Below, piece after piece: positions 17,663 to 56,779 of a DNA stretch of 64,000 nt. The DNA comes from Mycolicibacterium aichiense. Lineage in GTDB: Bacteria; Actinomycetota; Actinomycetes; Mycobacteriales; Mycobacteriaceae. Positions within the stretch are counted from its first letter, which is position 1. Every line of letters begins with the position of its first letter. Where the stretch lies: contig NZ_AP022561.1 of the NCBI RefSeq assembly GCF_010726245.1, positions 3,844,001 to 3,908,000 of the forward strand. The letters are read 5' to 3'. The translations under genes and the position numbers were made by a program. The notes under the pieces are model-generated. The model ran no database searches, was not told where the DNA came from, and worked only from the letters and a program-made list of their open reading frames with translations.

Positions 17663-17677
17663 GAGAATGACATTATC
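17663..17677. promoter_or_regulatory. Palindrome of the GAGAAY-N3-RTTCTC type (mam operon)
   Basis: GAGAAT, three bases, then ATTATC: eleven of twelve arm positions fit the palindrome found near 20441, 37876 and 51550. It lies about 150 bases upstream of the Mam genes in the 243-base gap after the fadD stop. On the minus strand it contains TAATGT, which could serve as a -10 hexamer. The rest of the gap (17520-17762) shows no gene. Confidence 0.5.
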
Positions 17678-17762
17678 ATCAGGCGGTAAGTTCATTCGAC
17701 GAGCCGGTGCCAGCAGCGCCAATAACTGCCACTCTTGGTGCGGAAATGACGTTTCCGCCTAT

Positions 17763-19223
17763 TCAGCGCAGCTGGTCTTTCATCACCTTGCCTGTGGCGT
17801 TCAGCGGCAGGCTGTCGACGATTACGACCGACCGGGGCACCTTGAAACCTGCCATCCGGTCTCGGCTCCAGGCCATCAGATCGTCCTCCGACAGCCGAGC
17901 ATCCCCCTTCAGTACGACGAACGCCTTGCCGACCTGACCGAGCCGCTCGTCGGGCACACCGATCACCGCCGCCTGCTCTACAGCGGGGTGTTCCATCAGG
18001 AAGCCCTCGATCTCGGCCGGGTAGGCGTTGAAACCGCCGACGATGAACATGTCCTTCTTGCGCCCGACGATCTTCAGGCGTCCCGACTCGGTGAAGCTGC
18101 CGAGGTCTCCGGTGTGCAGCCAGCCGTCGGCGTCGATGGCCTCAGCCGTGGCCGCCGGATCGTCGAAGTAACCCTGCATGACGCTGTAGCCCCGGACCAG
18201 CACTTCGCCGTCGTCGGCGATGCGCACCTCGACGCCATCGCACGGCACGCCTGCTGTGGTGGCGACGTCGTCGAACGAGTCCCCCGGCCGGGACAGCGTC
18301 GCGGTGCCGGCCTCGGTGAGCCCGTAGCCGGTGGCCAGTGTGCGGAACGGCAGTTCCTCGTGCACCCGGCGGATGAGTTCCACCGGAATGTCGGCGGCAC
18401 CGGTCACCCCGGCCCGCAGCGTGGCGAGCTTGCTCTTGTCCGGCACCGCCAGCAGCGAGTGATACAGCGTCGGCGGCCCCGGCAGCATCGTGATCTTCTC
18501 TGCCGCGATCAGCTCGACTACGCGGTCGACGTCGAAGACCGGGACCGGCAGCATCGTTGCGCCGCGGATGAAGGTGGCGATGCAGCCGGCTTTGTATCCG
18601 AAGGTGTGGAAGAACGGATTGACGATCAGGTAGCGATCGCCTCGGCGCAGGTCCGCCAGGTCGCACCACTCGGTGTACATCCGGAGGTTCTGCAGATGAT
18701 TCATCATCACACCTTTGGGCCGGCCGGTGGTCCCCGAGGTGTAGATGATGTCGGCGATGTCGGTTCCGCTGACCTCCCGCTGCAGGGGTTGGCCCTCTTC
18801 GAGGAAGCCGGACGTGAGGTCGATTGCCGGCACACCGGCCGGGACGGTGAAATCCTGTCCCAGGAAACCTTTTTCGACCAGGACCGCCTTGGCGCCGCTG
18901 CGGGTGATGATGTCGGCGGCTTCGGCCTGTTTATAGCGAGTGCTGACCGGCACGACGATGCCGCCTGCGGTCAGCACCCCGAAGGCTGCGATCATCCAGT
19001 GCGCGGAGTTGGGCGCCCAGATCGCGACCCGGTCGCCCTTCTCGACGCCCAGGTTCGCGAACGCGCCTGCCGCACACCGCACCCGGTGCGCGACCTCGGC
19101 GAAGGACAACCGCAGCGGACCGTCGACGACTGCCTCCGAGTCGCCGAATCGGTCCGCCGCGCTCAAGACCATCTCAGGGATGGTCTGCCAGTCGGGCTCG
19201 ATGGGACGGCCCGCTCGAATCAC
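17763..19223 (-). CDS. Acyl-CoA ligase (FadD3-like)
   Basis: A 486-residue adenylate-forming ligase. It has the ATP motif IIYTSGTTGRPKGVMMNH (about 160-177), YGLTEAGTATLS, GRKKDMFIVGGFNAYPAEIE (about 410-429) and the catalytic lysine in NATGKVMKDQL at the very end. The overall look recalls FadD3, which activates the steroid CD-ring acid HIP in cholesterol breakdown, but the match is from memory and the substrate could be another bulky acid. The GTG at 19223 overlaps the stop of the amidohydrolase gene by four bases, so the two form one unit from the 20.4-kb promoter. Confidence 0.8.
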   Translation of the reverse strand: MIRAGRPIEPDWQTIPEMVLSAADRFGDSEAVVDGPLRLSFAEVAHRVRCAAGAFANLGVEKGDRVAIWAPNSAHWMIAAFGVLTAGGIVVPVSTRYKQAEAADIITRSGAKAVLVEKGFLGQDFTVPAGVPAIDLTSGFLEEGQPLQREVSGTDIADIIYTSGTTGRPKGVMMNHLQNLRMYTEWCDLADLRRGDRYLIVNPFFHTFGYKAGCIATFIRGATMLPVPVFDVDRVVELIAAEKITMLPGPPTLYHSLLAVPDKSKLATLRAGVTGAADIPVELIRRVHEELPFRTLATGYGLTEAGTATLSRPGDSFDDVATTAGVPCDGVEVRIADDGEVLVRGYSVMQGYFDDPAATAEAIDADGWLHTGDLGSFTESGRLKIVGRKKDMFIVGGFNAYPAEIEGFLMEHPAVEQAAVIGVPDERLGQVGKAFVVLKGDARLSEDDLMAWSRDRMAGFKVPRSVVIVDSLPLNATGKVMKDQLR

Positions 19224-20410
19224 ACGGTGACGAGGCGGGACAGGTTGCCGCCCATGATCTTTGCCTGATCGTCGGCCTTCAGATGCTGAAGGGCCTCGAT
19301 GTAGTAGGTCGGCTCGGCCAGCCCTTCAGGGTGCGGCCAGTCCGAGCCGTAGAGCACTTGATCCACTCCGACGAGGTTGACCAGATCGTCGATGCCGTCT
19401 TCGAAGAACGGGCTGACATGGATGCGGCTCTTGACCATCTCGACCGGATCGCTCGGGAAAGCCTCCGGGGCCTTGCGGAAGACCTCGGCCAAACCGTCGA
19501 GCAGCGGGGTCATCCACTTGGAGCCGGCCTCGACGATCGCGACCTTCAGCTTCGGATGGCGGTATAGCGCACCGTGAATCACCCACGACCCCACCGAGTC
19601 CTGGATCGGGCGCCACTCGTTGAGGATGCCCATCGCATTGGTCTGGAACGGCAGCATCTCGGCGCTGGCACCGTCCCATTCGGAGGTGTACCGGGAGTAG
19701 CCACTGTCGCTGGAGTGCATGCCGACCAGCAGGTCGTACTCGACGACGCGCTCCCAGAACGGGTCGAACTCGGGCAACGCGAACGACCGTGGCCCACGGA
19801 ATCCGGGAACCGGCGCCGGGCGAACCAGGATGCAGCGGGCGCCCCGCTTGACCACCCACTCGAGCTCCTCGATCGCTTTCTCAACGATCGGCAGCGTGAT
19901 GACGGGCGTGGTGAAGATGCGGTTCTGGTAGTTGAACCCCCACACCTCGTCGAGCCACTGGTTGAGCGAGTGGACCAGGACGTGGATGGCCACTGGGTCA
20001 TCGGAGAGCCGCTCCTCCAGCAGGCTGGCCAGGGTCGGGAACATCAGGGTCTTGTCCAGACCGAGCTCGTTCATCACCTCGAGGCGCGGGCCGGGCTCGA
20101 AGAACGCGGGGATGGCGCGCATCGGCTCACCGAACAGTTCGCGCTTGGTCTTACCGTCCGGGTTGCCGTACTTGAAGTACTCCTCCCACGCGCCCGGCCG
20201 GGCGACGACCTCGAAGGTCGGGTTGGGAATGTAATTGCTGATCTGACCGCGCAGCGCAATCTTGGTGCGGCCGTTGACCTGCACGTACTGGACGTAGTCC
20301 TTGTATTCCTTCGGCAGGAACTTGGTCAGCGCCTCCGGCGGCTCGTAGAGATGGTTGTCCGCGTCGAAGATCGGAAACGGCACGTCCACCCGGTGCGACA
20401 GTTGACCCAT
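19220..20410 (-). CDS. Amidohydrolase-superfamily (amidohydrolase 2) protein
   Basis: A 396-residue TIM-barrel metal-dependent hydrolase or decarboxylase of the amidohydrolase_2 group. The N-terminal metal motif reads DADNHLYE rather than DxHxH. Other markers are HPKLKVAIVEAGSKW in the middle and YGSDWPHPEG near residue 360, whose Asp is the usual metal/base ligand. Related proteins decarboxylate or hydrolyse aromatic and ring-cleavage acids. The ATG at 20410 has an AAGGAGG site at ideal spacing. It heads the unit with the FadD3-like ligase; a perfect GAGAAT-CCT-ATTCTC palindrome covers its probable -10 region. Confidence 0.8.
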   Translation of the reverse strand: MGQLSHRVDVPFPIFDADNHLYEPPEALTKFLPKEYKDYVQYVQVNGRTKIALRGQISNYIPNPTFEVVARPGAWEEYFKYGNPDGKTKRELFGEPMRAIPAFFEPGPRLEVMNELGLDKTLMFPTLASLLEERLSDDPVAIHVLVHSLNQWLDEVWGFNYQNRIFTTPVITLPIVEKAIEELEWVVKRGARCILVRPAPVPGFRGPRSFALPEFDPFWERVVEYDLLVGMHSSDSGYSRYTSEWDGASAEMLPFQTNAMGILNEWRPIQDSVGSWVIHGALYRHPKLKVAIVEAGSKWMTPLLDGLAEVFRKAPEAFPSDPVEMVKSRIHVSPFFEDGIDDLVNLVGVDQVLYGSDWPHPEGLAEPTYYIEALQHLKADDQAKIMGGNLSRLVTV

Positions 20411-20433: not shown

Positions 20434-20448
20434 GAGAATCCTATTCTC
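20434..20448. promoter_or_regulatory. Perfect palindrome GAGAAT-CCT-ATTCTC overlapping a -10 element
   Basis: Six-base arms with a three-base centre, 24 bases upstream of the amidohydrolase ATG. On the minus strand the palindrome contains TAGGAT, a plausible -10 hexamer, so a bound regulator would block RNA polymerase. The same palindrome class recurs in front of four other units in this window. Confidence 0.65.
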
Positions 20449-20528: not shown

Positions 20529-20963
20529 ATGACAGTGATCAGCCCGGCCGCGATTTCCGATCCCCCCACAGTGAAGGACTTCTGCCGAAGGTGGGCCACC
20601 GCATGGAACGATCACGACGGCGACGCCGTCGCCGCGCTGTGCGCCGAAGACCTGGTCTACGACGAACCGGCGCTGGGCCAGACGGTGTATGGGCGCGAGC
20701 CGATCAAGAACTTCGTGACCGAGATGGCACGCACCTTCCCCGACAACACCTTCGCGCTCGAGGGCTTGTTCGCCGACGTCTCCCGGCGCGCCGTGCTGGT
20801 GGCGTGGAAGTTCACCGGCACGGTCGCCCGTACCGGCGCCGTCGTCGAGTTTCACGGCGATGATCGGCTGGAATTCAACGAGGACGGCTTGATCACGACC
20901 TACCGGTGCCTCTACGACAACGAACTGGTCAAGCGCCAGATCCGGGGTACCGAACGACGATGA
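20529..20963 (+). CDS. SnoaL-like polyketide-cyclase-fold protein
   Basis: A 144-residue NTF2/SnoaL-fold protein. It shows the KDFCRRWATAWNDHDGDAVAALCAEDLVYDEPAL opening typical of the family (a helix then a D/E-rich strand) and an FHGDDRLEFNEDGLIT end. These barrels act as isomerases or hydratases on cyclic substrates, or as non-enzymatic partners. It is transcribed divergently from the amidohydrolase operon with 118 bases between them. Its stop overlaps the TetR start by four bases (ATGA), so it is cotranscribed with the regulator. Confidence 0.75.
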   Translation: MTVISPAAISDPPTVKDFCRRWATAWNDHDGDAVAALCAEDLVYDEPALGQTVYGREPIKNFVTEMARTFPDNTFALEGLFADVSRRAVLVAWKFTGTVARTGAVVEFHGDDRLEFNEDGLITTYRCLYDNELVKRQIRGTERR

Positions 20964-21547
20964 GCCAATCTCCGGCTCCTCGGGTGTACAAGCCGGCGGC
21001 GGTTCGCCGCGGCGAAATCATCGCCGCGGCCGCGATCGAGTTCGCCGAAACTGGTTTGGCTGGAACACGATTGGAGGCGATCGCGGCGCGTGCGGAGGTC
21101 TCTCATCCGCGCATCGTGCAGATGTTCGGCTCGAAGCGGGAACTCTTCTTGGAAGTCGTCACCTGGGTGTTCGATCGCGTCAGTGAAGCGTTCGTGTCGA
21201 CCGCCACGGCCCACCAGGCGAACTCCGGTCCGGCCCTCGTCGCGCTCGGCGATGCCTACCGCCGCCTGCTGCAGAGAGACCGCACCGTCGCGCTGGTGCT
21301 GCTGCATGCGTATGCCGCGGCGGGCGACCCCGTTGTGCGCGACGAGGTGGCGGCCCGCTATCTGACACTGCAGCAGACCATCACGGACCTCACCGGCGCC
21401 GACGCCATGGGCGTCCGGACCTTCGTCGCAACCGGGCTTCTGGTCACTGTGTCCAGCGCATTGGCGCTACCCGGAAAACGCACCGACGCGCAGTGGGGCG
21501 GTTGGCTGCTGGAATTGGTCACACCGGTCGTCACTGGCCGGCACTAG
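20960..21547 (+). CDS. TetR-family transcriptional regulator
   Basis: A 195-residue regulator. The N-terminal helix-turn-helix is IIAAAAIEFAETGLAGTRLEAIAARAEVSHPRIVQMFGSKRELF (about 17-60), followed by an all-helical ligand-binding domain. The recognition helix VSHPRIVQMF is unusual for the family (more often KxTLYxHF). The ATG at 20960 is coupled to the SnoaL-like gene. It may control its own unit and the divergent amidohydrolase-fadD unit, making it one candidate reader of the GAGAAY-N3-RTTCTC palindromes. It converges with the CoA-transferase gene with two bases between the stops. Confidence 0.85.
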   Translation: MSQSPAPRVYKPAAVRRGEIIAAAAIEFAETGLAGTRLEAIAARAEVSHPRIVQMFGSKRELFLEVVTWVFDRVSEAFVSTATAHQANSGPALVALGDAYRRLLQRDRTVALVLLHAYAAAGDPVVRDEVAARYLTLQQTITDLTGADAMGVRTFVATGLLVTVSSALALPGKRTDAQWGGWLLELVTPVVTGRH

Positions 21548-21549
21548 CC

Positions 21550-23949
21550 TCAGCCCGGCGGTGCCGAGCCGATCACTCCAGCTGCCATCAGTTCCTCGAT
21601 GTCACTGTCGGACAAGCCGAGTTCGACCAGCAGCTCGTGATTGTGCTGGCCGAGCAGCGGCGCGGGCGCGATGTGGATCGGCGGTGTTCGGCGGGACAGT
21701 CGGAACGGCATCGTGGTGAACCTCGCCGGCGCATTCACCGGGTGATCGAGCACCTCGAAGAACTCGCGGGCGGCAAGCTGCTCGAGTTCGGTCTGTCGAT
21801 GCGGCTGGATGACCTTGGCCACCGGGACGCCGGCCGGCCACAGCCCGGCGACGATCTCGTCCCCGGTGCGGTCCCGGCACCACGCACCGAGGTGCCGGTC
21901 GACGACGTCCTCGTGGGCGCGCCGGCCACTCTCGGTATCGAGTTCGGCGTCGGCGGCCCAGCCCGGGTCACCGAGTGCGCTGCGCAACGCCTGCCACTGC
22001 TCGTCGGTCTCGACGGCGATCGCCACCCAGGAGTCGTCCCGGCCGAACTCGTCGATCTCGTTGCTGCGGTACAGGTTCTGCGGTGATGCTGTCGGTCCCC
22101 GATTGCCGGCGCGCTGGAGCACCGCGCCGTACGCGGTGTACTCGACGATCTGTTCAGCGGCGATGTTGAGGGCCGCATCCACCATCGCGGCCTCCACCAG
22201 TGCTCCCTTGCCGGTGCGCCGGCGATGTTCGAGGGCGAGCAGCACCGCGTTCAGCGCATGCACACCGGCGTTGGGATCGCCGAGGGAATACGGTTCGTAC
22301 GGATTGCGGTCCGGGTAGCCGGTGAGCCAGCTGATACCGGCGGCGGCCTCGATCACGTACGCGAACGCCGGATTGTCCCGCCATGGACCGTCCAGCCCGA
22401 AACCCGGCATCCGGCACATCACGATATCCGGCTGTATGCGTTGTAACGCACCGTAATCCAGTCCGAGCTGATCGAGTACCCGCGGCGTGTAGTTCTCGGC
22501 GACCACGTCGGCGGTGGCGATCAGCCGGAGCAGCAGCTCTCGGCCGCGTTCAGTGCCCAGGTCGAGGGTGATGTCCTTCTTACTGGTGTTCAGCGCCGCA
22601 AAAATCGGCTGTCTCTCCCACCAGTGGGCTTCGGTGACCGGCACCCCGGCGATCATCCGGGTGCCGTCGGGGCGGCGCGCGGACTCGACGTGGATCACCT
22701 CGGCACCCAGCAGCGCCATCAGGTGGGTGGCCGACGGCCCGGCCCAGAACGTGGTGAGATCCACCACGCGAATCCCGCTGAGTGGCAATCGATCCTGAGC
22801 AGTACCAGGCTCCCGGGGGGTGCGCGGCGTCTGGCGATGCCGGTCGGTGTGCTCGCCGAGTCGCGGGGCCGGCGACGGCGGGCGCAACTCGACGCCGGTG
22901 ATCCGGTAGGGATGGCCGGGCTGGCGGAAGCCGGCCGGGTGGGTGACGAACGTCTTCCTAGCGACGAAATGCTCCAGCGACTCGACGGTGTCGGGGGTGG
23001 CGACCGGCGCGTTGGGGATCCGGAATGCCGTGGCCAGCTCGCGCACCTCGTCACCGGTGTGTACGGCCATCCAGGCGTAGAGCTCGTCGGCTTTCTCGCC
23101 GGCCTGCTCGGTGATGCTCACGGGCGCGTTCTCGTCGATCCACTCCTCGTGGCCGGTCATCGCGCACAGATCAAACCACTGCTGAGCGGTGCCACATCCG
23201 ACGTCGACCAAGCCGTCCTTGACTCGGGCGACGCCTGGGACGGTCAACTTGCGGGCATCGCGCCAGGGCCGCCCGAGCATGTCGAAGTAGGTCACCGGGT
23301 AGTACGTCAGACCCATGACGTGACTTTCCAGCATGGACAGATCGATGAGTTCACCGGCGCCGCCGGCCACCACCCGCATTCGGGACGCCAGGATCGCCGC
23401 ACTGGCATACGCCCCGGACAGGTAGTCGCCGACCCGGCCGCCGACGTAGACCGGTGCACGGTCCGGCGCGCCGCGTCCCAGCCCGACGATGCCGCCGGAC
23501 CACGCCTGCAGCGTGAATTCGGTTGCGGGCCGGTCACTCCACGGACCGTCGAGACCGAATGGTGTGATCGCGACGACGATCAGGTGCGGATGGGCGGCGT
23601 GCATGGCGGCGGGCGCCAGCGCCGGATGCTCGGCCAGCGGTGAACCCGGTGACCAGACCACGGCGTCGGCGCCGGCCAGCAGGTCGCCCACCCACCGCAG
23701 ATCCTCGTCGAGGTCCGGGTCGGCGACTGCGCTGTGCTTACCACCAGCCAGAAAGCTGAACAGCGCGCCATCCTCGTTCGGCCCGATCTGCGAACCCGAG
23801 GCCGACCATCGCCTCAGCGGATCACCTTCGGGTGCCTCGACTTTGATGACGTCGGCACCGGCGTCGGCGAGCAATTTGGTGCAGTACCCGCCGGGGATAC
23901 CGGTGGACAGGTCGACCACGACAAAGCCGGTCAGTGGCGAGTCGGTCAT
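21550..23949 (-). CDS. Fused double CaiB/BaiF (type III) CoA-transferase
   Basis: A 799-residue protein made of two full family III CoA-transferase domains (about 1-385 and 410-799). Both open with the family pattern (FVVVDLSTGIPGGYCTKLLADAGADVIKVE; IRVVDLTTFWAGPSATHLMALLGAEVIHVE). Single-domain members are about 400 residues and form interlocked dimers, so this chain may be a tethered pseudo-dimer. I begin it at the ATG at 23949, two bases after the enoyl-CoA hydratase stop, since the longer frame only extends over that gene's lysine-rich tail. It should move CoA between carboxylic acids and is the last gene of the TetR-ferredoxin-P450 operon. Confidence 0.85.
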   Translation of the reverse strand: MTDSPLTGFVVVDLSTGIPGGYCTKLLADAGADVIKVEAPEGDPLRRWSASGSQIGPNEDGALFSFLAGGKHSAVADPDLDEDLRWVGDLLAGADAVVWSPGSPLAEHPALAPAAMHAAHPHLIVVAITPFGLDGPWSDRPATEFTLQAWSGGIVGLGRGAPDRAPVYVGGRVGDYLSGAYASAAILASRMRVVAGGAGELIDLSMLESHVMGLTYYPVTYFDMLGRPWRDARKLTVPGVARVKDGLVDVGCGTAQQWFDLCAMTGHEEWIDENAPVSITEQAGEKADELYAWMAVHTGDEVRELATAFRIPNAPVATPDTVESLEHFVARKTFVTHPAGFRQPGHPYRITGVELRPPSPAPRLGEHTDRHRQTPRTPREPGTAQDRLPLSGIRVVDLTTFWAGPSATHLMALLGAEVIHVESARRPDGTRMIAGVPVTEAHWWERQPIFAALNTSKKDITLDLGTERGRELLLRLIATADVVAENYTPRVLDQLGLDYGALQRIQPDIVMCRMPGFGLDGPWRDNPAFAYVIEAAAGISWLTGYPDRNPYEPYSLGDPNAGVHALNAVLLALEHRRRTGKGALVEAAMVDAALNIAAEQIVEYTAYGAVLQRAGNRGPTASPQNLYRSNEIDEFGRDDSWVAIAVETDEQWQALRSALGDPGWAADAELDTESGRRAHEDVVDRHLGAWCRDRTGDEIVAGLWPAGVPVAKVIQPHRQTELEQLAAREFFEVLDHPVNAPARFTTMPFRLSRRTPPIHIAPAPLLGQHNHELLVELGLSDSDIEELMAAGVIGSAPPG

Positions 23950-35264: not shown

Positions 35265-36407
35265 ATGGCGGCCGTCGAGGCCGTCGTCGACCTGGGCGCG
35301 ATCGCCCACAACGTGGGCGTGGTGGGTGACCGGGCGCGCTCGGGCGTGATGGCCGTTGTCAAGGCCGACGGCTACGGCCACGGCGCCACCCAGGTCGCGC
35401 GCGCCGCGCTGGCGGCCGGTGCGGCCGAGATCGGCGTCGCCACGGTCGACGAGGCCCTGGTACTGCGCCGCGACGGGGTGTCCGCTCCGATCGTTGCCTG
35501 GCTCCACACGCCCACAACCGATTTCGCTGCCGCGGTTGCCGCGGACGTGGAAGTGGTGGTGTCCTCGGTCCGTCAGTTGTCGGCTGTGGCGGCGGCAGCC
35601 GAATCCGTGGGCACCGCCGCGACGATCGGGGTGAAGGTCGACACCGGTCTCGGACGCGGCGGCGCCGGGCTACCCGAGTGGCCGCAGCTGTGCGGCGGCG
35701 TCGCCACATGTGTGGCATCCGGTTCGGTGGTGATGCGGACCGCGATGACACACCTTGCCAGAGGTGATGAACCAGATCATCCGCTGAATACTCGGCAGGC
35801 GGCACATCTGGATGACTGCGTGTCAGATCTGCGCCGGGCCGGCACACCCGCACAGGTGGTGCACGTGTCGAATTCAGCTGCGGCACTGACTCGCCCGGAT
35901 CTGTCGCGCGATCTGGTTCGCGCCGGAATCGCCATCTACGGGCGCACCCCCCTGCCACAGCTCGGCGATTTCGGTCTCGAACCGGCGATGACGCTGACGG
36001 CCGAGATCGCGCTCGTCAAGAAGATCTCGGCAGGACAGGGAGTTTCGTACAACCACATGTGGATTGCGCCGCGCGACACCACGATCGCGGTCGTCGCCTG
36101 TGGGTATGCCGATGGCATCCCTCGGGTGCTGTCGGACGGGTTCGCAGTGATGATCGGCGGGCGACGATTCCCCAGTGCGGGACGAGTCTGTATGGACCAG
36201 TTCGTCGTCGACCTCGGGCCCGGCGCAACCGGCGTGACCGAGGGTGACCGGGCGGTGCTGTTCGGTTCTGGAATCACCGGCGAGCAGACCGCCGCGGACT
36301 GGGCACGCGCCGCGGGCACGATCGACTACGAGATCCTCTCGGGGGTGCGTGGGCGCACCGTGCGGCGCTATCTGTCTCGGCCCAGCGTCAGCAGGCAGGC
36401 ATCCTGA
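35265..36407 (+). CDS. alr: Alanine racemase
   Basis: A 380-residue PLP alanine racemase. The PLP lysine is K33 in [10 protein letters not shown], the second catalytic residue Tyr lies in GVSYNHMW, and CGYADGIPR and VCMDQFVVD follow; all are standard. The ATG is one base after the transaminase stop. A dedicated copy here, apart from the housekeeping cell-wall racemase, suggests it converts D-alanine released by the transaminase to L-alanine for reuse as pyruvate. The coding region overlaps the end of the convergent xylulokinase gene by 40 bases. Confidence 0.9.
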
Positions 36408-37868: not shown

Positions 37869-37883
37869 GAGAACGATGTTCTC
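37869..37883. promoter_or_regulatory. Perfect palindrome GAGAAC-GAT-GTTCTC upstream of P450 operon
   Basis: Six-base perfect arms with a three-base centre, one more matching base pair on each side being partly kept (TGAGAAC, GTTCTCTCA). It lies about 100 bases upstream of the P450 gene, in the 218-base divergent gap with xylulokinase. A possible -35 TTGACA is at 37923-37928. The spacer is three bases, unlike the two-base spacer of the KstR steroid box. Confidence 0.6.
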
Positions 37884-39168: not shown

Positions 39169-39199
39169 CATCCATCACCTACGAAGGGACTGAACAATC

Positions 39200-40039
39200 A
39201 TGGCAGGACGGGTAGAGGGCAAAGTCGCGTTCGTCACCGGCGCGGCACGCGGGCAGGGTCGCGCGCACGCGGTGCGGCTTGCGTCAGAAGGCGCCGACAT
39301 CATCGCGGTGGACATCTGTAAGAAGATCGACACCGTCGACCTGATCGCGGCGTCGACGCCGGAAGATCTGGCCGAGACCGCCGACCTGGTCAAGGGCCAC
39401 AACCGGCAGATCTACACCGCCGAGGTCGACGTCCGCGACTACGACGCGCTCAAGAACGCGGTCGACGCGGGCGTGGACGCCCTGGGCCGGCTCGACATCA
39501 TCGTGGCCAACGCCGGCATCGGCAACGGCGGCCAGACGCTGGACAAGACCAGCGAGACCGACTGGACCGCGATGATCGACATCAACCTCGGCGGCGTGTG
39601 GAAGACGGTGAAAGCCGGTGTGCCGCACATCCTCGAAGGCGGCCGTGGCGGATCGATCATCCTGACCAGCTCGGTGGGCGGGCTCAAGGCTTATCCGCAC
39701 ACCGGGCACTACGTCGCCGCCAAACATGGTGTGGTCGGCCTGATGCGGACGTTCGCCGTCGAGCTGGGTGCGCAGAACATCCGGGTCAACTCGGTGCACC
39801 CGACGAACGTGAACACTCCGCTGTTCATGAACGAGGGCACGATGAAGTTGTTCCGTCCCGACCTGGAGAACCCGGGCCCCGAGGACATGAAGGTGGTCGG
39901 TCAGCTGATGCACACCCTGCCGATCGGCTGGGTGGAGCCGGAGGACATCGCCAACGCGGTGCTGTTCCTGGCGTCCGACGAGGCCCGCTACATCACCGGC
40001 GTCACCTTGCCCGTCGACGGCGGCAGTTGCTTGAAATAA
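39200..40039 (+). CDS. Mycofactocin-coupled SDR-type oxidoreductase
   Basis: A 279-residue SDR of the subfamily tied to the redox cofactor mycofactocin. It has the extra insert after the nucleotide motif (GAARGQGRAHAVRLASEGADIIAVD), VANAGIG, the catalytic Y-x3-K segment YVAAKHG, and the tell-tale VHPTNVNTP block. Family members tend to hold their NAD(H) tightly and pass electrons to mycofactocin. It follows the P450 by 31 bases and likely oxidises the alcohol the P450 makes. The next gene starts within its last codons in another frame. Confidence 0.88.
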   Translation: MAGRVEGKVAFVTGAARGQGRAHAVRLASEGADIIAVDICKKIDTVDLIAASTPEDLAETADLVKGHNRQIYTAEVDVRDYDALKNAVDAGVDALGRLDIIVANAGIGNGGQTLDKTSETDWTAMIDINLGGVWKTVKAGVPHILEGGRGGSIILTSSVGGLKAYPHTGHYVAAKHGVVGLMRTFAVELGAQNIRVNSVHPTNVNTPLFMNEGTMKLFRPDLENPGPEDMKVVGQLMHTLPIGWVEPEDIANAVLFLASDEARYITGVTLPVDGGSCLK

Positions 40040-42201
40040 CCCCCACACCGCCGCAGACCGTCCACACGTTCTGCCGGTACTGCCTTGCCTCGTGCGGTGT
40101 CGAGGTCACCGTCGAGGCGGGGCGGGTGGTGAAAATCTCTGCGGACAAACAGAATCCGCACAGTTGGGCGGACTTCTGCGCCAAGGGCCGCACCGCCGCC
40201 CAGCTGGTCGAACACCCTCGCCGCATCACCCGCCCGATGCGGCGGGTGGGCGACCGCTACGTCGAGGCGACATGGGACGAGGCCGTCGCCGACATCTCCG
40301 CGCGGATGTCGGCGATCATCTCCGCAGGCGGTCCCGACGCCGTCGCGACCTACACCGGCAATCCGTCCGGCTTCTCGTCGTCGAACCTGCTGTTCATGAC
40401 CGGCTGGCTGGACGCCATCGGCAGCCAGAACCGCTACTACGTCGGCTCGGTCGATCAGAACGCTCTGCACGTCGTGGCGCAGGCGATGTACGGCTCACAG
40501 TTGTTCGTCCCCGTCTCCGATATCGACAACTGCGACTTCTTCCTTCTGGTGGGCGCCAATCCAGCTGTCAGCGCGTGGAATTGGGTGGAGACGGTGCCGG
40601 GCGGCTGGAAACGGGCGCTGGCCCGGCAACGACAGGGCGCCAGGATCGTGGTGGTCGACCCGGTCCGCACCGAGAGTGCCGAGAAGGCGGACACCCATCT
40701 GGCCGTCCGCCCCGGCCAGGACTGGGCGCTGCTGCTCGCCATGGTGAAGGTGATCCTCGACGAGGGCCTCGAGCACCGCGACGACTGCCGCGACCTCGCC
40801 GGCGGGATGGCCGCATTACGCGCGTTGGCCGCCGAGGCCGACCTCGACGACCTGGCAGCGCGCTGCGGCATTCCCCGCACCGACATCGAGACGCTGGCAC
40901 GCGATTTCGCCGGCGCACCCGGTGCCATGGCGATCACCCGCACCGGGGTCTCGCTGCATCTGGCCGGGACCATCGGCGAGTGGCTGGGGCACGTCCTCAA
41001 CGTCATCACCGGACGGATGGACCGGCCGGGTGGGCGACGATTCGAGCGTGGCTACGTCGACGCGTTGAAGCTGGCGGCGTTCGCCAAGCCGGTGGATCAT
41101 CGCAGCCGGGTGCAGGGCCGGCCCATGGTGGCCGGCCATCACGGACTCGACGAATTGCCCGGCGAGATCACCACTCCCGGGCCGGGGCAGATCCGAGTGA
41201 TGGTGATCAACGCAGGCAACCCCGTCGTCTCCGGGCCCGATGGCGCACGTCTGGATGCCGCGCTGGGTCAGCTCGATCTATTGGTCGTGATCGACTTCCT
41301 GCAGCGCGAAAGCCACCGGCACGCGCATTGGCTGCTTCCCGCAGCGCACTGGCTGGAACGGGACGATCTGCTGGCGCTCACCAGCGGCCTGCACGACGAA
41401 CCCTACGTCCAGTACGGGCGGCGGGCGATCGACCCACCGGATGATGCTCGCGAGGAGTGGCGGTTCTTCCTCGATCTGACGCTGGCGATGAAGCGGCCCT
41501 TCCTGGGAATCCGGGGCGTCAACGGGTTCGTGAGGGCGACGCGGGCGCTGGCCAGGGTGACGCGCAAACCGTCGTGCGCGTTCGGGCCGCACTGGATCGA
41601 CCGGATGATCATCGCGTCGTGTCGCGGGATCAGCTGGCGTGCGGTCATGGCGCATCCGCACGGCTGGGTGTTCGGCAAACGCGAATTCGGACATCTCCGA
41701 AAGGCATTGCGCACCGCAGACAAGAAGATTCACGTCGCACCCGTGGAGTTTGTGGACCGGGCCCGCGAGCTGCTCGCCGAACCGCATCCCGTGGCACCGG
41801 CCGGGCGTCCGTTCCAGCTGGCGAACAGCCGGCGCCGGCACTCGATGAATTCGTGGCTCAACGACATTCCGGGCCTGCACCCGTCGGGCAAGGACAATCA
41901 TGCGGTGATCAACTCCCACGATGCGGCCGCGCTCGGGATCGCCGACGGGGATCGGGTCAGGGTGTTCTCCGACATCGGTGCGATCGAGCTCACCGCCGTG
42001 ATCAGCGACAGGCCCCGGCCCGGCGTCGTGATCGTCGACCACGGCTGGGGCTCGCGGGTGTTCGACCCACGCGGCGGTGCCGAGCCGGTGTCGTTCGGCG
42101 TCAACCGCAACCTGCTCGTCGAGGGCTCCCCCGTCGATCCGCTGTCGCAGACGCCGGCATTGAGTTCGGCGTACGTGGGGATCGAGCGAGTCGGGCTCTA
42201 G
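40027..42201 (+). CDS. Molybdopterin oxidoreductase (formate dehydrogenase/nitrate-reductase-like) with [4Fe-4S] cluster
   Basis: A protein of about 724 residues. Cysteines at C16, C19, C23 and C51 (FCRYCLASCG, then DFCAKG) bind a [4Fe-4S] cluster. A large Mo/W-bis-pterin body (about 60-560) and a C-terminal MoCo-binding domain follow, the latter with HPSGKDNHAVINSHDAAALG and a final barrel. The start is unusual: no ATG or GTG lies near the conserved N-terminus. A TTG at 40027, four codons before the SDR stop and overlapping it in another frame, is my best guess. It could carry out an oxygen-atom transfer or dehydrogenation linked to the P450-SDR pair. The partner subunits are not visible. 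Confidence 0.75.
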   Translation: MLEITPTPPQTVHTFCRYCLASCGVEVTVEAGRVVKISADKQNPHSWADFCAKGRTAAQLVEHPRRITRPMRRVGDRYVEATWDEAVADISARMSAIISAGGPDAVATYTGNPSGFSSSNLLFMTGWLDAIGSQNRYYVGSVDQNALHVVAQAMYGSQLFVPVSDIDNCDFFLLVGANPAVSAWNWVETVPGGWKRALARQRQGARIVVVDPVRTESAEKADTHLAVRPGQDWALLLAMVKVILDEGLEHRDDCRDLAGGMAALRALAAEADLDDLAARCGIPRTDIETLARDFAGAPGAMAITRTGVSLHLAGTIGEWLGHVLNVITGRMDRPGGRRFERGYVDALKLAAFAKPVDHRSRVQGRPMVAGHHGLDELPGEITTPGPGQIRVMVINAGNPVVSGPDGARLDAALGQLDLLVVIDFLQRESHRHAHWLLPAAHWLERDDLLALTSGLHDEPYVQYGRRAIDPPDDAREEWRFFLDLTLAMKRPFLGIRGVNGFVRATRALARVTRKPSCAFGPHWIDRMIIASCRGISWRAVMAHPHGWVFGKREFGHLRKALRTADKKIHVAPVEFVDRARELLAEPHPVAPAGRPFQLANSRRRHSMNSWLNDIPGLHPSGKDNHAVINSHDAAALGIADGDRVRVFSDIGAIELTAVISDRPRPGVVIVDHGWGSRVFDPRGGAEPVSFGVNRNLLVEGSPVDPLSQTPALSSAYVGIERVGL

Positions 42202-48102: not shown

Positions 48103-49049
48103 GCGGTTACCGCCGTCCGGATCGCGAATCCCGCGATCAACTCGGGAGCAGCGCGGTAGTAGCGCTGCTGCGTCTGATAGTCACCCTGGGACGCCAACGC
48201 GGCGAATGCCGCCACCCAGGTTCGGATCTCGTGCGCGGAGTTGCCGGCTTCGCGGGCGATCCAGTCGTTGGTCCAGCCGTCCACCTCGGCCAGCCGGTTG
48301 GTGTCGATGAGGTCGAGCAGGGCAAGGTCCCAGTCCGGGTTCAGCGGCTGCAGTGCACTCTCGCCGCGGGCGAACTGGTAGGCAGCGGCGATCACGGCCT
48401 CCTGCCGTGCCGTTCGCCCATCCGGGGACATCGGCGCCCCGCCGACGATGCGCTCGAGCGCCGCGGGTGGCGCAGTCGCCAGCGTCGGCACCGGTGGGTC
48501 ATGGGACAGCCCACCGGATCCGACGACAAGCACTCGTTTGTCCAGGGTGCCAAGGAATTCACCGATCGCGCTGCCCAGCGCCCGGGTGCGCTTGAGCGGC
48601 CCCAACGGAGTGGCCACCGAGTTGATGAACACCGGGATGACGGGCGGCGCGGCGGCGGGCAGATTTTCGGAACCGAACAGCACTTCGAGCGGCTGGACCG
48701 TGCCGTGATCGACGTCCATGGCCGCCGACAAGGAGACGTCGACACCGGCGTCCCACACCGCTGCCGCCATCTCGTTGGCGAGTGCGGCCGGCACATTCAA
48801 CGGTCCGGCGTGCGTGCCGTAATCGCCGACGCCGGCGGCCGCTGTGCCGATGCAGAACGGCGGCATCAACCGGTAGAAGAACCCGTTGTAGTGGTCCGGT
48901 GAGAAGATCACCACGAGCTCGGGGTCGAATTCCGCTACGAATGACCGGGTTTCGGCCAGCCGTCCGTTGATGTCGTCAAGTAGTTCCGCCGACGGGCCGG
49001 GAAGGTTCAGCAGCGGGCTGTGTGACATACAGCAGAGCGCCAGTGGCAT
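48099..49049 (-). CDS. mhpB: LigB-type extradiol ring-cleavage dioxygenase (MhpB-like)
   Basis: A 316-residue class III extradiol dioxygenase, collinear with E. coli MhpB (2,3-dihydroxyphenylpropionate 1,2-dioxygenase) as I recall it. Shared blocks are [71 protein letters not shown] and [11 protein letters not shown]. His residues in SHSPL and PDHYN bind Fe(II). It opens a catechol ring next to its hydroxyl. The ATG at 49049 has a strong GGAGGAGG site but lies 74 bases inside the mhpA-like gene; the conserved N-terminus rules out a much later start. Confidence 0.9.
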
Positions 49050-50655
49050 CGGTGCCTCCTCCCGGGGTCAAGGTGAGTGTGTCGAGCAGGGCCGTGCTCA
49101 GTTCCGGTGTGCGTTGGGCGATGCAGGCGCCGGCGATGCAGCGGTCCGGCCGCAGGAACATCACCGACTCTTCGTGTGCGTCGAACCATGCCTTGAGTGC
49201 GCCGGTACGGTCCCCGACGACGATGACGTCGGGGTCGTCGTGTCCGGTCCAGTGCAACTGGGTGATCGGACGCAGCGCGACGAAAACCGCACCCAGCGAC
49301 TTCCACGCCGCGAAGTCCTTCTCCCCCAGCAGTTGTCGGGGGTTGTTGCTCCAGCAGACAAAGGCGAACCACGGGCCGATGACGTCGTCGAGCAGGACGT
49401 TCTGGTTGTCCCGGGTGTCCACCCGGGGCTGGATGAACAGGGTGCCCACCGCCGACGACGGTGACCGCGGCTCGGCGTGCACCACCGCACCCTGCTCGTA
49501 GCGGGGCATCGGCTTGAACCGCATCTCCAGTACATACCGCTTCAGCGTGGGCACCAGGGATGCGGCGCGAATCACCGCGTCCCGGGCGGCGGCCACGCGC
49601 GAGTTGGTCGGCGAGATGACCTTGCCCACTGTGGTCGAGAGGTCGATCATCGCGCGAGCGTGCTTACGGCGCTCGACGTCGTAGCTGTCCAGTAGCGCAT
49701 CGCGGGCCTGTCCCTTGACCACGGCTGCCAGCTTCCAGCCGAGGTTGGCGGCATCGCGGATGCCGCTGTTGTAGCCCTGGCCCTGCCACACCGGCATGAG
49801 GTGGGCGGCGTCCCCGGCAATCAGGATGCGTCCCTTGCGGAATGAGCTCGCGATTCGGGAGTGGTGGGTGTACAGGCGGCGGCGGATGATGTCGCACTTG
49901 TCCGGGTAGGGCACCAGCCGGGACAGCATCTGCGCGACGAACGCGGGGTCCTCGGCCTGTTCGTCGGTCTCGTGGCCGTGGATGAGGAACTCGAAGCGCC
50001 GGATGCCGTGGGCGATGGCGATCGAGACGTAGGGCCGGACCGGGTCGGCGCCGACCTCGCTGTTGGGATGTCCGAGTGGATCGTTGGCGATGTCGACCAC
50101 CAGCCAGCGGGTCGACGACGTCGTGCCGTCGAAGGACACCCCCATCAGACGGCGGGTGGCGCTACGGCCGCCATCGCAGCCGACGACGTAGCGGGCGCTG
50201 ACCGTTCGGGGGTGGGAATCGGCGGGCGACAGCTCGACGACGACTCCGTCGGCGGTCTCGGTGATCGAGGTCATCGGATGACCCCATGCCACCTCGACGT
50301 TGCCGAACCGGCCGAGGCCTTTGTAGAGCTCGGCATCGACCAGCGGCTGGACGAAACCGTTGCGCTTGGGCCAGCCGAACCGCGCGTCGGGCGGTGCCAT
50401 CTCGGCGAGCAATCTCCGCTTGCCGTCGTAGAACCGCAAGATCTGGTTGGGCACGGTGTGCGGCAGTACGGCGTCCGCCAGGCCGATCGCCTGAAAGGTC
50501 CGCAGGGCTTCGTCGTCGAGGCCCACCCCGCGCGGATAGTCGATGAGCGCATCTCGCTCATCGACCACCAATGTGCGAACCCCCTGCAGGCCAAGGATAT
50601 TGGCAAGGGTCAACCCAACCGGCCCGGCACCCACCACGACGACGTCGAACTCCAT
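48976..50655 (-). CDS. mhpA: FAD-dependent aromatic hydroxylase (MhpA-like)
   Basis: A 559-residue flavin monooxygenase like MhpA, which hydroxylates 3-(3-hydroxyphenyl)propionate to a catechol. It has [21 protein letters not shown] (FAD), [15 protein letters not shown], the DG motif in [12 protein letters not shown] and the [22 protein letters not shown] ribityl-phosphate motif. A thioredoxin-like C-terminal domain ends in [19 protein letters not shown], the last part of which is coded inside mhpB. I chose the ATG at 50655, just after the hydrolase stop; a GTG at 50661 would add two residues. The substrate may not be hydroxyphenylpropionate, because mhpDEF are absent. Confidence 0.87.
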
Positions 50656-50657
50656 AC

Positions 50658-51521
50658 TCACCGGCCCACCAGGAAGTCGATGTGCAGGCGGTTGAACGTC
50701 TTGGGATCCTCGTACTGCGGCCAGTGCCCGCAGCCTTGCATGACCTCGAAGCGCGCACCCGGGATCATCTCCGAGATCCGGCGGCCCTCCGTCGTGTCGG
50801 CGGTCGGGTCGTCGCTGGTCCACAGCACCAGCGTCGGCGCGGCGATTGCGCCGTAGTCGCTGGGGCTCATCAGGTTTCGCTGCCGGATCTCTGGATCCTG
50901 CAACGCCATGATGTCGCGCATCGCGTTGACGAACCCGGGTTGCCGGTACACCCGCTGGCGGCTGGCGACGATGTCGTCGTAGTCCTTGGACTTGTCTGCC
51001 ATCAGCCACTTGATCCTGGCCTGCACGGTATCCCAGCTCGGGTTCTCCGCAGCGGCCATCGACAGCGTGATGATCCGCTTCATCACCTCGGGGTCGGCCT
51101 GCGAACCGCCGGCGGTGTTCAGCACCAACCGCTCGAGCCGGTCGGGGTGGTCGACGGCGAACCGCGACGCGACCCAGCCGCCCAGCGATTCACCGGAGAT
51201 GTGTGCCGTCTGCGCCCCGATGGTGTCGAGGACGGCAGCGAGATGCTCGACGTAGTGCGGGATCTCCAGCAGGTGCCCGGGCTTGTCGGTGTAGCCGTGC
51301 CCCAGCATGTCGATCGACCAGGTCGAGAAGTGTTCGGCGTGCGCCTCGAGGTTGCGGACGTACGCCTCGGCGTGGCCACCCGAGCCATGGAGCAGCACCA
51401 GCGTCGGCTTACTCGGGTCGCCGGCGTGCAGGTAGCGGGTGCGCACTCCGCCGGCATCCAGGTAGCCCTGCGAGAACGCAACGCCCTGCAGATCACTCCA
51501 GACGCTCTCGAACTCCGGCAC
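50658..51521 (-). CDS. mhpC: Meta-cleavage C-C hydrolase (MhpC-like)
   Basis: A 287-residue alpha/beta hydrolase cleaving the ring-fission product, as MhpC does. It has [31 protein letters not shown], the nucleophile elbow [15 protein letters not shown] with Ser, [12 protein letters not shown] and the catalytic His of [11 protein letters not shown]. The GTG at 51521 has an AGGGG site about eight bases upstream. It is the first gene of the eight-gene operon and is divergent from the IclR regulator with 171 bases between them, where operator-like palindromes lie. Confidence 0.85.
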
Positions 51522-51542: not shown

Positions 51543-51557
51543 GATAATGGGATTCTC
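51543..51557. promoter_or_regulatory. Near-palindrome GATAAT-GGG-ATTCTC at the mhp-like promoter
   Basis: It matches the amidohydrolase-promoter palindrome at 20434-20448 in 13 of 15 positions (comparing the complementary strand) and lies 22 bases upstream of the mhpC-like start. It is in the AT-richer part of the 171-base divergent gap, well placed to control the mhp-like operon. Confidence 0.6.
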
Positions 51558-51692: not shown

Positions 51693-52394
51693 ATGACGCA
51701 GACACCCACCGAAAGCCCGATCAGCGCTGCGCCGGGGTCACAGACCCTGGCCCGTGGATTGCACGCATTGCAGCTGGTCGCGGCAGCGAAAGGCGGGTTG
51801 ACCATCCAACAGGTCGCCGACCACATCGGCGTGCATCGGACCATCGCCTACCGACTGCTGAGCACGTTGGCCTCGTACCGGATGGTGGCCAAAGCCGAGG
51901 ACGGACGGTTCCGCGCCGCGGCCGGGCTCGCCGCTCTGGGTGCCTCGTTCGACAACAACATCCGCGAACTGTCGATGCCGACGCTGCGGAACCTCGCCGA
52001 CGAGCTCGACACCACGGTGTCGTTATTGGTCGCCGAGGGTGATCAGCAGGTCGCGATCGCCGTCATCGTGCCAACCCGGGTCTCCTATCAGCTGTCCTTC
52101 CACGAGGGCAGCCGCTATCCCCTCGACCGCGGCGCGGCCGGTATCGCACTGCTGGCCAGCATGCCGGTGCGGCCGGGCGAACGTCCGTTGGTCACCCGCG
52201 CGCGCGAACAGGGCTGGATCATCACCTACGGGGAGGTCGAGCCCAACACCTACGGTCTCGCGGTTCCGGTACACCGGCCGACAGGCTCGCCGCACACGTG
52301 TATCAACCTGATCTCACACCGCGAAGATGTGGTGCTGCACGGGCGGGAGTCGGCGATCGCGGCGGCACAGCGACTTTCGGTGGTTTTGAGTTAA
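51693..52394 (+). CDS. IclR-family transcriptional regulator
   Basis: A 233-residue regulator. The winged helix-turn-helix is QTLARGLHALQLVAAAKGGLTIQQVADHIGVHRTIAYRLLSTLASYRMV (about 18-66), followed by a GAF-like effector domain (from about 85). I start it at the ATG at 51693, which has a GGGGA stretch upstream; a start at 51627 would add 22 unlikely residues. It is divergent from mhpC, as IclR proteins often are from the aromatic operons they control (MhpR is itself of this family), so it probably senses the aromatic substrate. The next gene, a KstD-like enzyme, has its own promoter. Confidence 0.88.
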   Translation: MTQTPTESPISAAPGSQTLARGLHALQLVAAAKGGLTIQQVADHIGVHRTIAYRLLSTLASYRMVAKAEDGRFRAAAGLAALGASFDNNIRELSMPTLRNLADELDTTVSLLVAEGDQQVAIAVIVPTRVSYQLSFHEGSRYPLDRGAAGIALLASMPVRPGERPLVTRAREQGWIITYGEVEPNTYGLAVPVHRPTGSPHTCINLISHREDVVLHGRESAIAAAQRLSVVLS

Positions 52395-54209: not shown

Positions 54210-54259
54210 ATTGAGCGCGACGATTTCGCGAATTCTTCTCTCTGAGTGCGCTCTCAACG
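54198..54259. repeat. 62-bp hairpin element, copy 1
   Basis: Perfect 13-base arms (54198-54210 and 54247-54259) enclose 36 bases. It is non-coding and follows the KstD-like stop, so it could serve as a terminator. By hand, 45 of its 62 positions match the element at 55134-55195 without gaps, showing the two are related copies flanking the DUF559 gene. Confidence 0.75.
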
Positions 54260-54311
54260 CCCTGTGGATGGGTGAACACGTCCCTGTGCGCCCTTTGACA
54301 CCCTGCAACCC

Positions 54312-55139: not shown

Positions 55140-55195
55140 GAGCGTGCTGAGAGCGAGCCTTCGGCGAAAAGTTCGCTCCCAGTGCGATGTCAACG
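55134..55195. repeat. 62-bp hairpin element, copy 2
   Basis: The same length and register as the element at 54198-54259, identical at 45 of 62 positions. Its arms are less perfect (CGTTGA and TCAACG at the ends, GAGCGA and TCGCTC inside). It holds the stop codon of the DUF559 gene on the plus strand and of the CoA ligase on the minus strand, so it probably ends transcription both ways. Confidence 0.7.
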
Positions 55196-56725
55196 CTCGG
55201 CAATGTGCTTGCGCACCAGATACTTCTGCACCTTACCGCTGGCTGTGCGGGGGTAGTCCCCTGCCACCTCGTGTAATTCTTCGGGCCACTTCTGCCGTGC
55301 CGCACCGCAGCTGTCGAAGTGCGCGCGAACCTCCTGCAGCGTCGGCATCCGGTGGCCCTCCCGGACGCGCAGCACGGCAGCGGTGTGCTCGCCGAGACGG
55401 GCGTCCGGCGCAGAGACCACCACCGCTTCGGCGACCGCCGGCATGCTCAGCAGCAGCTCCTCGACCTCAAGCGCGCTGATGTTCTCGCCACCGCGGATGA
55501 TCACGTCCGCTTTGCGGTCGGTGATCGTCAGGTAGCCGTCCTCGTCGAGGACGCCGATGTCTCCGGTGTGATACCAGCCCTCAGCGTCAAAAGCCTTGGC
55601 AGTCACCATGTCATCGGTGTACCCGAGGCACAGATCCGGTCCGCGAGAGAGGATCTCGCCTTCGTCGGTCAGACGGACCTCCACGCCGGGCCGGGCGTCA
55701 CCGTCGGTGAACAGCCGCTTGTCCTCCGGCGCGCTCGGCCGTGACCCGGTGATCGACGGGTGCTCGGTGCTGCCGTAGGAGCGGAAGACGTGCACACCCA
55801 GATCGGCGAGCCGACGGGTCACCGCGATCGGCACCGTCGAGCCACCGAGGCCGACGTGTTTGATCCGGCTCATGTGCGCGTCGGTGAAATCGGGGTGATC
55901 GAGCAGGCTTGTGACGAAGTACGGCGGGCCGCCGCCGATCGACATGCCTTCGGACTCCATCAGTTCCAGCACCCGGCCGGGATCCCAGACGTCGGTCAGG
56001 TCGATGGGCGCGCCTTCGAGCACCGGAATCAGGAAGGCACCGACCATACCGATGAAGTGGCCGACGGGCGTCGCGGTGATCTGTCTGCCGCGGTCGGGCG
56101 CATAGTTCTCCAGCAGCTGCCGAGTCTCGAACCCCAGCGTTTGATGGCTGTGGATCACGCCCTTGGGATCGCGGGTTGTTCCGGAGGTGAACGCGATCAG
56201 CGCCGGGCCTGCCGGATCGGTGTGCAGCTCGCCGTCCATCGGTTCGTCGGCCAGCAGGTCATCGAAGTTGTCGCCCACCAGGCCCACGATCGGGATCTCG
56301 GCACACAGATCTGGCTGATACGTCATGTGTCCGAAGTGCTCGGTGGTGATGAAGACCTTGGGCCGTGCCGTGCCGATGATGTGGGTCAATTCCTTGCGAC
56401 CGTAGAAGTGCACGATCGGCACGACGACAGCCCCCAGGAACGACGTCGCCCAATACGTCACCGCGGCCTCGACCCAGTTGGGCAGCTGGAAGGCGATGAC
56501 GTCACCGGGGCCGACCCCGCGGGACCGCAACCCGGCCGCCAGCCGGCGCGCAAGGATCTCCACGTCGCGGAAGGTCCCACTGAACGGCCGTACCGCGGAG
56601 TGCACCCAGAACCCGGTGTCGGGGTTGGCCGCCAGACCCTTGGCCAGCAGCTCACCGAGAGTATCCGGCGTCCACCAGCCTTCCTCGATGTAGCGTTTGC
56701 TCAGCTCAACCGGGATATTCCTCAA
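55190..56725 (-). CDS. Acyl-CoA ligase (cyclohexanecarboxylate-CoA-ligase-like)
   Basis: A 511-residue adenylate-forming ligase with LIAFTSGTTRDPKGVIHSH, YGSTEHPS, DRKADVIIRGGENISALEVEE and the catalytic lysine in TASGKVQKYL. The YGSTEHP signature recalls ligases for alicyclic acids, but the substrate is uncertain. I choose the TTG at 56725 as start because a perfect GGAGGTG lies six bases upstream. A GTG at 56734 sits within that site and would add three residues. It is divergent from an enoyl-CoA hydratase gene, and the gap contains two overlapping GAGAAT/ATTCTC elements. Confidence 0.85.
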   Translation of the reverse strand: MRNIPVELSKRYIEEGWWTPDTLGELLAKGLAANPDTGFWVHSAVRPFSGTFRDVEILARRLAAGLRSRGVGPGDVIAFQLPNWVEAAVTYWATSFLGAVVVPIVHFYGRKELTHIIGTARPKVFITTEHFGHMTYQPDLCAEIPIVGLVGDNFDDLLADEPMDGELHTDPAGPALIAFTSGTTRDPKGVIHSHQTLGFETRQLLENYAPDRGRQITATPVGHFIGMVGAFLIPVLEGAPIDLTDVWDPGRVLELMESEGMSIGGGPPYFVTSLLDHPDFTDAHMSRIKHVGLGGSTVPIAVTRRLADLGVHVFRSYGSTEHPSITGSRPSAPEDKRLFTDGDARPGVEVRLTDEGEILSRGPDLCLGYTDDMVTAKAFDAEGWYHTGDIGVLDEDGYLTITDRKADVIIRGGENISALEVEELLLSMPAVAEAVVVSAPDARLGEHTAAVLRVREGHRMPTLQEVRAHFDSCGAARQKWPEELHEVAGDYPRTASGKVQKYLVRKHIAER

Positions 56726-56742
56726 CTGCAGCACCTCCGCTT

Positions 56743-56779
56743 GGCGATGCTATTCTCCGTCATCGAGAATGCCAATACC
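56743..56779. promoter_or_regulatory. Two degenerate GAGAAY-N3-RTTCTC elements in divergent gap
   Basis: ATTCTC at 56752-56757 and GAGAAT at 56765-56770 are arranged outward, so each is half of a separate 15-mer (56743-56757 and 56765-56779), with 11 and 10 of 15 matches to the element at 20434-20448. On the minus strand the first contains TAGCAT, a possible -10 for the CoA ligase, in the same register as TAGGAT in the 20.4-kb palindrome. Confidence 0.45.

Follow-up and report, generated by a model that had tools for sequence, protein, structure and literature searches.

A conserved GAGAAY-N3-RTTCTC palindrome at catabolic promoters of Mycolicibacterium aichiense and a TetR-family protein as its probable reader

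The intergenic regions of a 64,000-nucleotide stretch of the Mycolicibacterium aichiense genome (G000:C1:3844001-3908000, here called the window, from a one-contig genome of 5.93 Mb) carry copies of the palindrome GAGAAY-N3-RTTCTC, two 6-bp arms within 15 bp in total, next to genes for a P450, amidohydrolase-type proteins and CoA-linked enzymes. The palindrome is probably the operator of TetR-A, a TetR-family regulator encoded outside the window. To describe it, 184 kb of the contig around and including the window were read in detail, the reversed pattern served as control, and gene limits as well as coding and intergenic labels were taken from a simple gene caller written for this analysis. 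Short coordinates refer to the window and seven-digit coordinates to the contig.

Predicted operators in the window and in the genome

The sites and their predicted targets in the window are the following.

17663-17677: predicted one-mismatch operator, GAGAATGACATTATC; far edge 158 bp from the start of the gene at 16797-17519 (-)
20434-20448: predicted perfect operator, GAGAATCCTATTCTC; between the amidohydrolase gene 19220-20410 (-) and the SnoaL-like gene 20529-20963 (+)
37869-37883: predicted perfect operator, GAGAACGATGTTCTC; between the FGGY kinase gene 36368-37768 (-) and the P450 gene 37987-39168 (+)
51543-51557: predicted one-mismatch operator, GATAATGGGATTCTC; between the hydrolase gene 50658-51521 (-) and the IclR-type regulator gene 51693-52394 (+)
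56743-56779: two 15-bp palindromes at a distance of 22 bp, whose inner arms form the N7 element ATTCTC-N7-GAGAAT (56752-56770) and whose outer arms are weak; between the CoA ligase gene 55190-56734 (-) and the enoyl-CoA hydratase gene 56799-57515 (+)
19220-20410 (-): Amidohydro_2 protein, predicted target
20529-21547 (+): SnoaL-like protein and TetR (20960-21547), predicted targets; this TetR is not the general reader
37987-42201 (+): P450, SDR and molybdopterin oxidoreductase, predicted target operon
48976-51521 (-): FAD-binding_3 monooxygenase-like protein and HsaD-like alpha/beta hydrolase, predicted targets
51693-52394 (+): IclR-type regulator, predicted target
55190-56734 (-): acyl-CoA ligase, predicted target
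56799-57515 (+): enoyl-CoA hydratase, predicted target

The sequences and coordinates of these sites had been given in a preliminary description of the window and proved exact on re-reading. The sites at 20434-20448 and 37869-37883 are perfect, those at 17663-17677 and 51543-51557 have one arm mismatch each, and the two halves of the last element (56743-56757 and 56765-56779) have three mismatches each. The site at 51543-51557 was confirmed as such, but it matches the first site at 11 and not at 13 of 15 positions, and the arm consensus at 11 of 12. Likewise, the "degenerate overlapping copies" reported at 56743-56779 were correctly placed but in fact represent a second layout, RTTCTC-N7-GAGAAY, which was also seen elsewhere in the stretch.

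When up to three mismatches were allowed, the window contained 67 matches compared to 48.1 expected (largest of 100 shuffles, 62), a modest excess. Since the window is only modestly above chance at this level, a lone three-mismatch site means little and the case rests on the strict sites. With at most one mismatch, a Markov model gives a mean of 0.37 sites for the window (maximum 2 in 30 simulations) and four were found, while the 184 kb contained eight perfect sites against 0.03 expected (maximum 1 in 100 simulations). The whole genome has ten perfect sites and 47 with at most one mismatch, compared to 0 and 2, respectively, for the reversed control. Eight of the ten perfect sites cluster in one 122-kb catabolic stretch (3,864,434 to 3,986,209) that extends well past the window. 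This stretch is 92% coding; all ten perfect sites of the genome are intergenic, as are 222 of the 223 perfect sites in 80 loci of relatives, so that the possibility, raised in the preliminary description, of a motif as frequent in coding DNA as in promoters does not apply to perfect sites. Among the 37 one-mismatch sites, six of seven inside the stretch are intergenic and 25 of 30 outside it lie in coding DNA; the latter group is mostly coding background. Together the ten perfect-site regions and five further regions of the stretch, in which the intergenic site has one mismatch, amount to about 15 promoter regions, two of them unlinked to the others (at 304 kb and 3,696 kb). The earlier proposal of five linked promoters is supported as regards a single regulon and was too low in its size. 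Six of the ten perfect sites are close to a start codon, which on one side or both is no more than 65 bp away from the far edge. Taken together, GAGAAY-N3-RTTCTC is very probably a real control site. The variant arm GATAAY in place of GAGAAY recurs in the window (51543, and 17663 on the reverse strand), elsewhere on the contig (3921561 and 3936644) and in loci of other genomes (L204:5822 and L210:5841), and because of this recurrence the true consensus may tolerate T at the third base of one arm.

Conservation of the target promoters and nature of the pathway

As the preliminary description had expected of a genuine operator, sites are kept at orthologous promoters although gene order differs. 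Four genomes were compared over the regions around their perfect sites, namely G034 and G090 (10 of 11 sites each) and G020 and G101 (9 of 9 each). In all four, sites are present at the orthologues of the amidohydrolase gene 19220-20410, of the divergent ferredoxin and CoA ligase genes (3,978,671) and of TetR-A. The same is true for the divergent amidohydrolase and CMD-Rieske genes (3,965,995), where one of the four sites was called coding, and for the acyl-CoA dehydrogenase pair diverging from an amidohydrolase gene (3,946,844), where each orthologous promoter has two sites 123-124 bp apart. Two sites at a distance of 123-126 bp were observed at this type of divergent promoter on the contig itself (3946718 and 3946844) and also in loci L203, L209, L215 and L226. 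Orthologues of a POR-type oxidoreductase subunit near the unlinked site at 3,696,078 have a site in three of the four genomes, those of the SDR in the P450-SDR unit (37869) and of the SDR at 3,973,640 in two each, and those of the hydrolase and IclR pair (51543) in one, G020, in which the site between the two genes is perfect.

For the sites in the window, the counterpart of 20434 is a perfect site whose far edge lies 37-38 bp from the amidohydrolase orthologue in all four genomes. The site at 17663, which is 2,771 bp from the amidohydrolase site here, corresponds to one-mismatch intergenic sites at 2,821, 2,840 and 2,827 bp in G034, G020 and G090, respectively; in the fourth genome the contig stops short of this position. 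A site accompanies the orthologous P450/SDR unit in G034, G020, L121, L141 and L159, and none was found at the unit in L109.

The predicted products of the target genes include P450s, a Rieske oxygenase, Amidohydro_2 proteins, acyl-CoA dehydrogenases, CoA ligases and transferases, thiolases and SDRs, a mixture that points to oxidative, CoA-linked catabolism. One of the amidohydrolases has sequence matches to PtmU3 and DitZ, and the stretch contains sub-threshold matches to the HsaD and IpdE2 models as well as a ChsH2-type domain, which together give a hint that the substrate might be a polycyclic terpenoid- or steroid-like compound. Further genes were observed beside motif sites on the contig, one for a mutase large subunit (3980986-3982961), for which the nearest solved structure is 2-hydroxyisobutyryl-CoA mutase, and one for a MeaB-type GTPase (3972655-3973539). 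Within the window, positions 21550-23949 encode a single chain of 799 aa that contains two CoA-transferase family III domains.

TetR-A, TetR-B and the arrangement of the sites

The preliminary description had left room for a regulator encoded outside the window, and our results favor such a protein. TetR-A (218 aa, contig 3,971,992-3,972,648, + strand) is encoded about 64 kb to the right of the window end, with an acyl-CoA dehydrogenase-domain gene and the MeaB-type gene as neighbors, and directly before its gene lie a perfect site (3971907) and a weaker one 21 bp further on. Its N-terminal helix-turn-helix domain scored 30.5 bits against Pfam TetR_N (cut-off 24), and its AlphaFold2 model (pLDDT 83.7) has the all-helical fold of the family, with TetR-family structures as the best Foldseek matches. 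The nearest folds were EthR2, YvdT, acyl-CoA-binding FadR proteins and Rv0078; KstR2 and AibR ranked below them. Since the acyl-CoA-binding FadR, AibR and KstR2 are among these folds, the model suggests an acyl-CoA inducer for TetR-A. FadR (from Bacillus and Thermus) and AibR share with TetR-A, besides the fold, a connection to acyl-CoA catabolism, although the identity of these acyl-CoA-responsive regulators to TetR-A in those alignments is only 14-20%.

TetR-A is identical in Mycobacterium sp. ENV421 and 98% identical in M. rhodesiae. When the best 80 of 257 relatives were analyzed, mostly from Mycobacterium and Mycolicibacterium but including two Nocardia, one Aldersonia and one metagenome-assembled genome labelled Acidobacteria, a perfect site was present within 250 bp upstream of TetR-A in all 80. 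A perfect site was likewise found at the TetR-A promoter in 30 of 30 loci from a search of the genus, the species of which overlap with the 80. The contig labelled Acidobacteria (L104), which encodes a TetR-A of 82% identity with a perfect upstream site, is possibly a misbinned mycobacterial contig. Moreover, TetR-A was present in 163 of 198 genomes of the genus, and the mean number of sites per genome was 8.9 with TetR-A compared to 0.8 without it. Of the 163 genomes with TetR-A, 158 have at least four sites, as do 2 of the 35 lacking it (160 of 198 overall). In line with these results, the two Nocardia genomes and the Aldersonia genome, whose TetR-A proteins are 81-83% identical, contain 11, 13 and 6 perfect sites (control, 0), and the DNA-reading region of TetR-A is almost invariant, even in an orthologue of 63% identity.

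The arrangement of the sites was analyzed in loci of this genome and of its relatives amounting to 1.9 Mb, each chosen because it contains TetR-A or sites. In these loci the arms GAGAAY and RTTCTC face inward with a spacer of three bases in 269 cases, while every other spacer from 0 to 24 occurs at most once, except for N24 (13 cases), a peak that two sites 21 bp apart would yield. Facing outward, N7 is the commonest spacer (10 cases), followed by N1 (4), N22 (3), N11 (2) and three single cases. All three outward pairs with spacers of 0-20 in the 184-kb stretch are N7 and intergenic (56752; 3,909,924; 3,920,477). Such an N7 element corresponds to a pair of palindromes, 22 bp apart, in which the outer arms are weak, and a second match (at least 9 of 12) beside perfect sites was indeed most frequent at 22 bp (fraction 0.087, mean of both sides), followed by 21 bp (0.022), with a median of 0 over all offsets. 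On average 2.95 N7 elements were counted in genomes with TetR-A and 0.97 in those without, rough values, since the counts for G037, G087 and G157 include another repeat. These three genomes contain several ATTCTCTAAAATAGAGAAT-like palindromes that fit the N7 pattern and look like a different repeated element. In G004, all 19 letters of the element at 56752 are identical, and G151 also has an N7 element, at a like distance from TetR-A; TetR-A may read the N7 elements as well. Some promoters would then carry two operators 21-22 bp apart, that is, two turns of the DNA and on one face, often reduced to RTTCTC-N7-GAGAAY, a spacing that would fit two dimers side by side.

Several observations weigh against the assignment of the sites to TetR-A. 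Four genomes (G026, G063, G089 and G178) keep TetR-A with the same helix-turn-helix region and yet have only 0-1 sites, lack a perfect site in the TetR-A promoter and have no TetR-B match; they may be remnants of a regulon that has been lost. Conversely, G156, which has neither TetR-A nor TetR-B, contains four sites, two of them coding. Nor is TetR-A the only gene with such a promoter site, since a perfect copy within 250 bp upstream was counted for 253 of the 1302 other genes in the 80 loci. A regulon would be expected to show this, but it means that TetR-A is not distinguished by its promoter site alone. In addition, the related genomes counted are not independent, and the spacing counts carry the selection of their loci for TetR-A or sites.

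The main rival is TetR-B (contig 3,916,936-3,917,622, - strand), which might itself read the sites, either with TetR-A as one of its targets or with both proteins acting. Its distribution is nearly the same, with TetR-B present in 159 of the 198 genomes and 158 of these shared with TetR-A. Genomes with both proteins have a mean of 9.1 sites and the 34 with neither a mean of 0.5, but the five genomes with only TetR-A have 0, 0, 1, 1 and 4 sites and the single one with only TetR-B (G148) has nine, so that co-distribution alone leans to TetR-B. In the M. aichiense genome TetR-B lies between the site at 3916514 and a P450 gene, and in other genomes N7 elements are often found within a few kb of it. 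However, when 20 TetR-B promoters were examined over 600 bp, neither a site with up to one mismatch nor an exact N7 element was present in any of them, and no such site was seen in the TetR-B promoter of the own genome. In G056, which is not among these 20, the two genes are divergent and the TetR-A site is also about 206 bp upstream of TetR-B, serving both promoters by position. The contig of G148 includes the TetR-A promoter and its perfect site and then breaks off, about 45 bp short of the TetR-A start. For TetR-B, the best relatives in the two Nocardia genomes and the Aldersonia genome reach only 47, 44 and 40% identity compared to 81-83% for TetR-A, although they could be diverged TetR-B orthologues. 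Because of the contig end in G148, the site-free TetR-B promoters and the identities in Nocardia and Aldersonia, the evidence leans to TetR-A, and we regard a reading of the sites by TetR-B as unlikely.

Relation to known regulons and a proposed mechanism

A second alternative is that the sites belong to an already published regulon. A 2019 study of phytosterol induction (PMC6593523) describes a palindromic 'motif X' outside the KstR and KstR2 regulons and assigned it to the orthologue of Rv0767c, with about 14 operons and P450, SDR and TetR genes among the targets. The regulon described here resembles it in these respects and also in having a TetR-family regulator. In M. aichiense, however, the gene next to the best Rv0768-type aldehyde dehydrogenase, taken by this position as the Rv0767c orthologue, is a distinct one (672.5-673.1 kb). 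Upstream of it are GGACACATGTCC and GGACACGTGTCC, with no match to GAGAAY-N3-RTTCTC at up to two mismatches, and the palindrome found there is absent from the 184-kb stretch. Furthermore, binding sites of Rv0767c in M. tuberculosis are enriched in GAC/GTC according to PMC10312376. It is thus very unlikely that the two regulons are the same, a rejection based on the promoter of the orthologue and not on the published motif logo. In the divergent Rv0767c/Rv0768-type pair (contig 672538-674751) two GGACACRTGTCC palindromes were observed in the intergenic region, a likely operator of the Rv0767c-type TetR.

KstR or KstR2 could read the sites with a relaxed spacer, as might be suspected from the AAC/GTT-like cores, the catabolic context and the presence of KstR2 among the nearest folds to TetR-A. 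The two known regulators bind TNNAACGTGTTNNA (KstR) and AAGCAAGNNCTTGCTT (KstR2) according to PMC8228715, and by our reading both sites have a two-base center as opposed to N3 here. The KstR of the genome itself is encoded at 533 kb (335.7 bits, cut-off 280) and has a TAGAACACGTTCTA box upstream, while TetR-A reaches only 21.1 bits on the same curated model. No copy of GAGAAY-N3-RTTCTC was found in the 40-kb kstR region. Conversely, the 184-kb stretch has no intergenic TNNAACNNGTTNNA match and one coding match, and neither of its two short CAAG-N2-CTTG matches is at a site. With arms, spacer and separate regions all speaking against them, KstR and KstR2 are rejected as readers, a role that we consider extremely improbable, in agreement with the preliminary description, which had proposed a regulon separate from KstR. 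The two regulons nevertheless resemble each other in having a TetR-family protein, a palindromic operator, many catabolic operons and an autoregulatory box, and differ in arms, spacer and, in this genome, in the regions they occupy. The TetR at 20960, put forward in the preliminary description and encoded only 0.5 kb away from the perfect site at 20434, has practically no chance of being the general reader, because relatives were found in 6 of 198 genus genomes (E<=1e-30), with no match in all the others, compared to at least four sites in 160 of 198; a local role is possible, and it is more likely a target, since the site at 20434 is in its presumed promoter.

Among other systems, KstR3 of M. 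neoaurum is a further TetR repressor, the third steroid-linked one in the genus. According to PMC10398937 it represses a small cluster, and its deletion raised four clustered genes (an aldolase-DUF35-reductase operon and a neighbor); the sites assigned to TetR-A mark about 15 promoter regions, and the neighbors of the TetR-A gene are those named above. Balhana et al. derived motifs for 30 TetRs of M. tuberculosis (PMC4482099). Among the matches listed for the open-licence PMC literature, no paper describes the regulon in its title or in the opening of its abstract, and the palindrome in its written forms gave none. A plasmid search gave one match of 27%, which was of no use.

In summary, we consider it probable that GAGAAY-N3-RTTCTC is the operator of TetR-A and that TetR-A represses about 15 promoter regions of oxidative, CoA-linked catabolism. 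From the sites, their intergenic placement and conservation, the site at the TetR-A promoter and the co-occurrence of protein and sites, all of which were observed, we infer binding and repression by TetR-A, its reading of the N7 elements, its ligand and the pathway. A TetR-A dimer would read both 6-bp arms, and in the unliganded state would sit on the promoter regions, its own included, and block transcription, until a pathway intermediate, most likely a CoA thioester, releases it. The role of a repressor fits the site in the promoter of TetR-A itself and the position of six of the ten perfect sites near start codons, since a protein bound so close to the start would obstruct RNA polymerase.

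More tentatively, TetR-A might stand at the head of an undescribed super-regulon for a bulky polycyclic (terpenoid- or steroid-like) compound, with a spread like that of KstR, with promoters that carry either one operator or two dimers (centers 21-22 bp apart), and with a distribution over most of the genus and some Nocardia and Aldersonia. If the interpretation is correct, one regulator and one operator would tie together about fifteen promoter regions of unassigned catabolic genes across most of the genus, in a regulon separate from those of KstR, KstR2 and the Rv0767c-type regulator, which would bear on wrong assignments in work with steroid strains.

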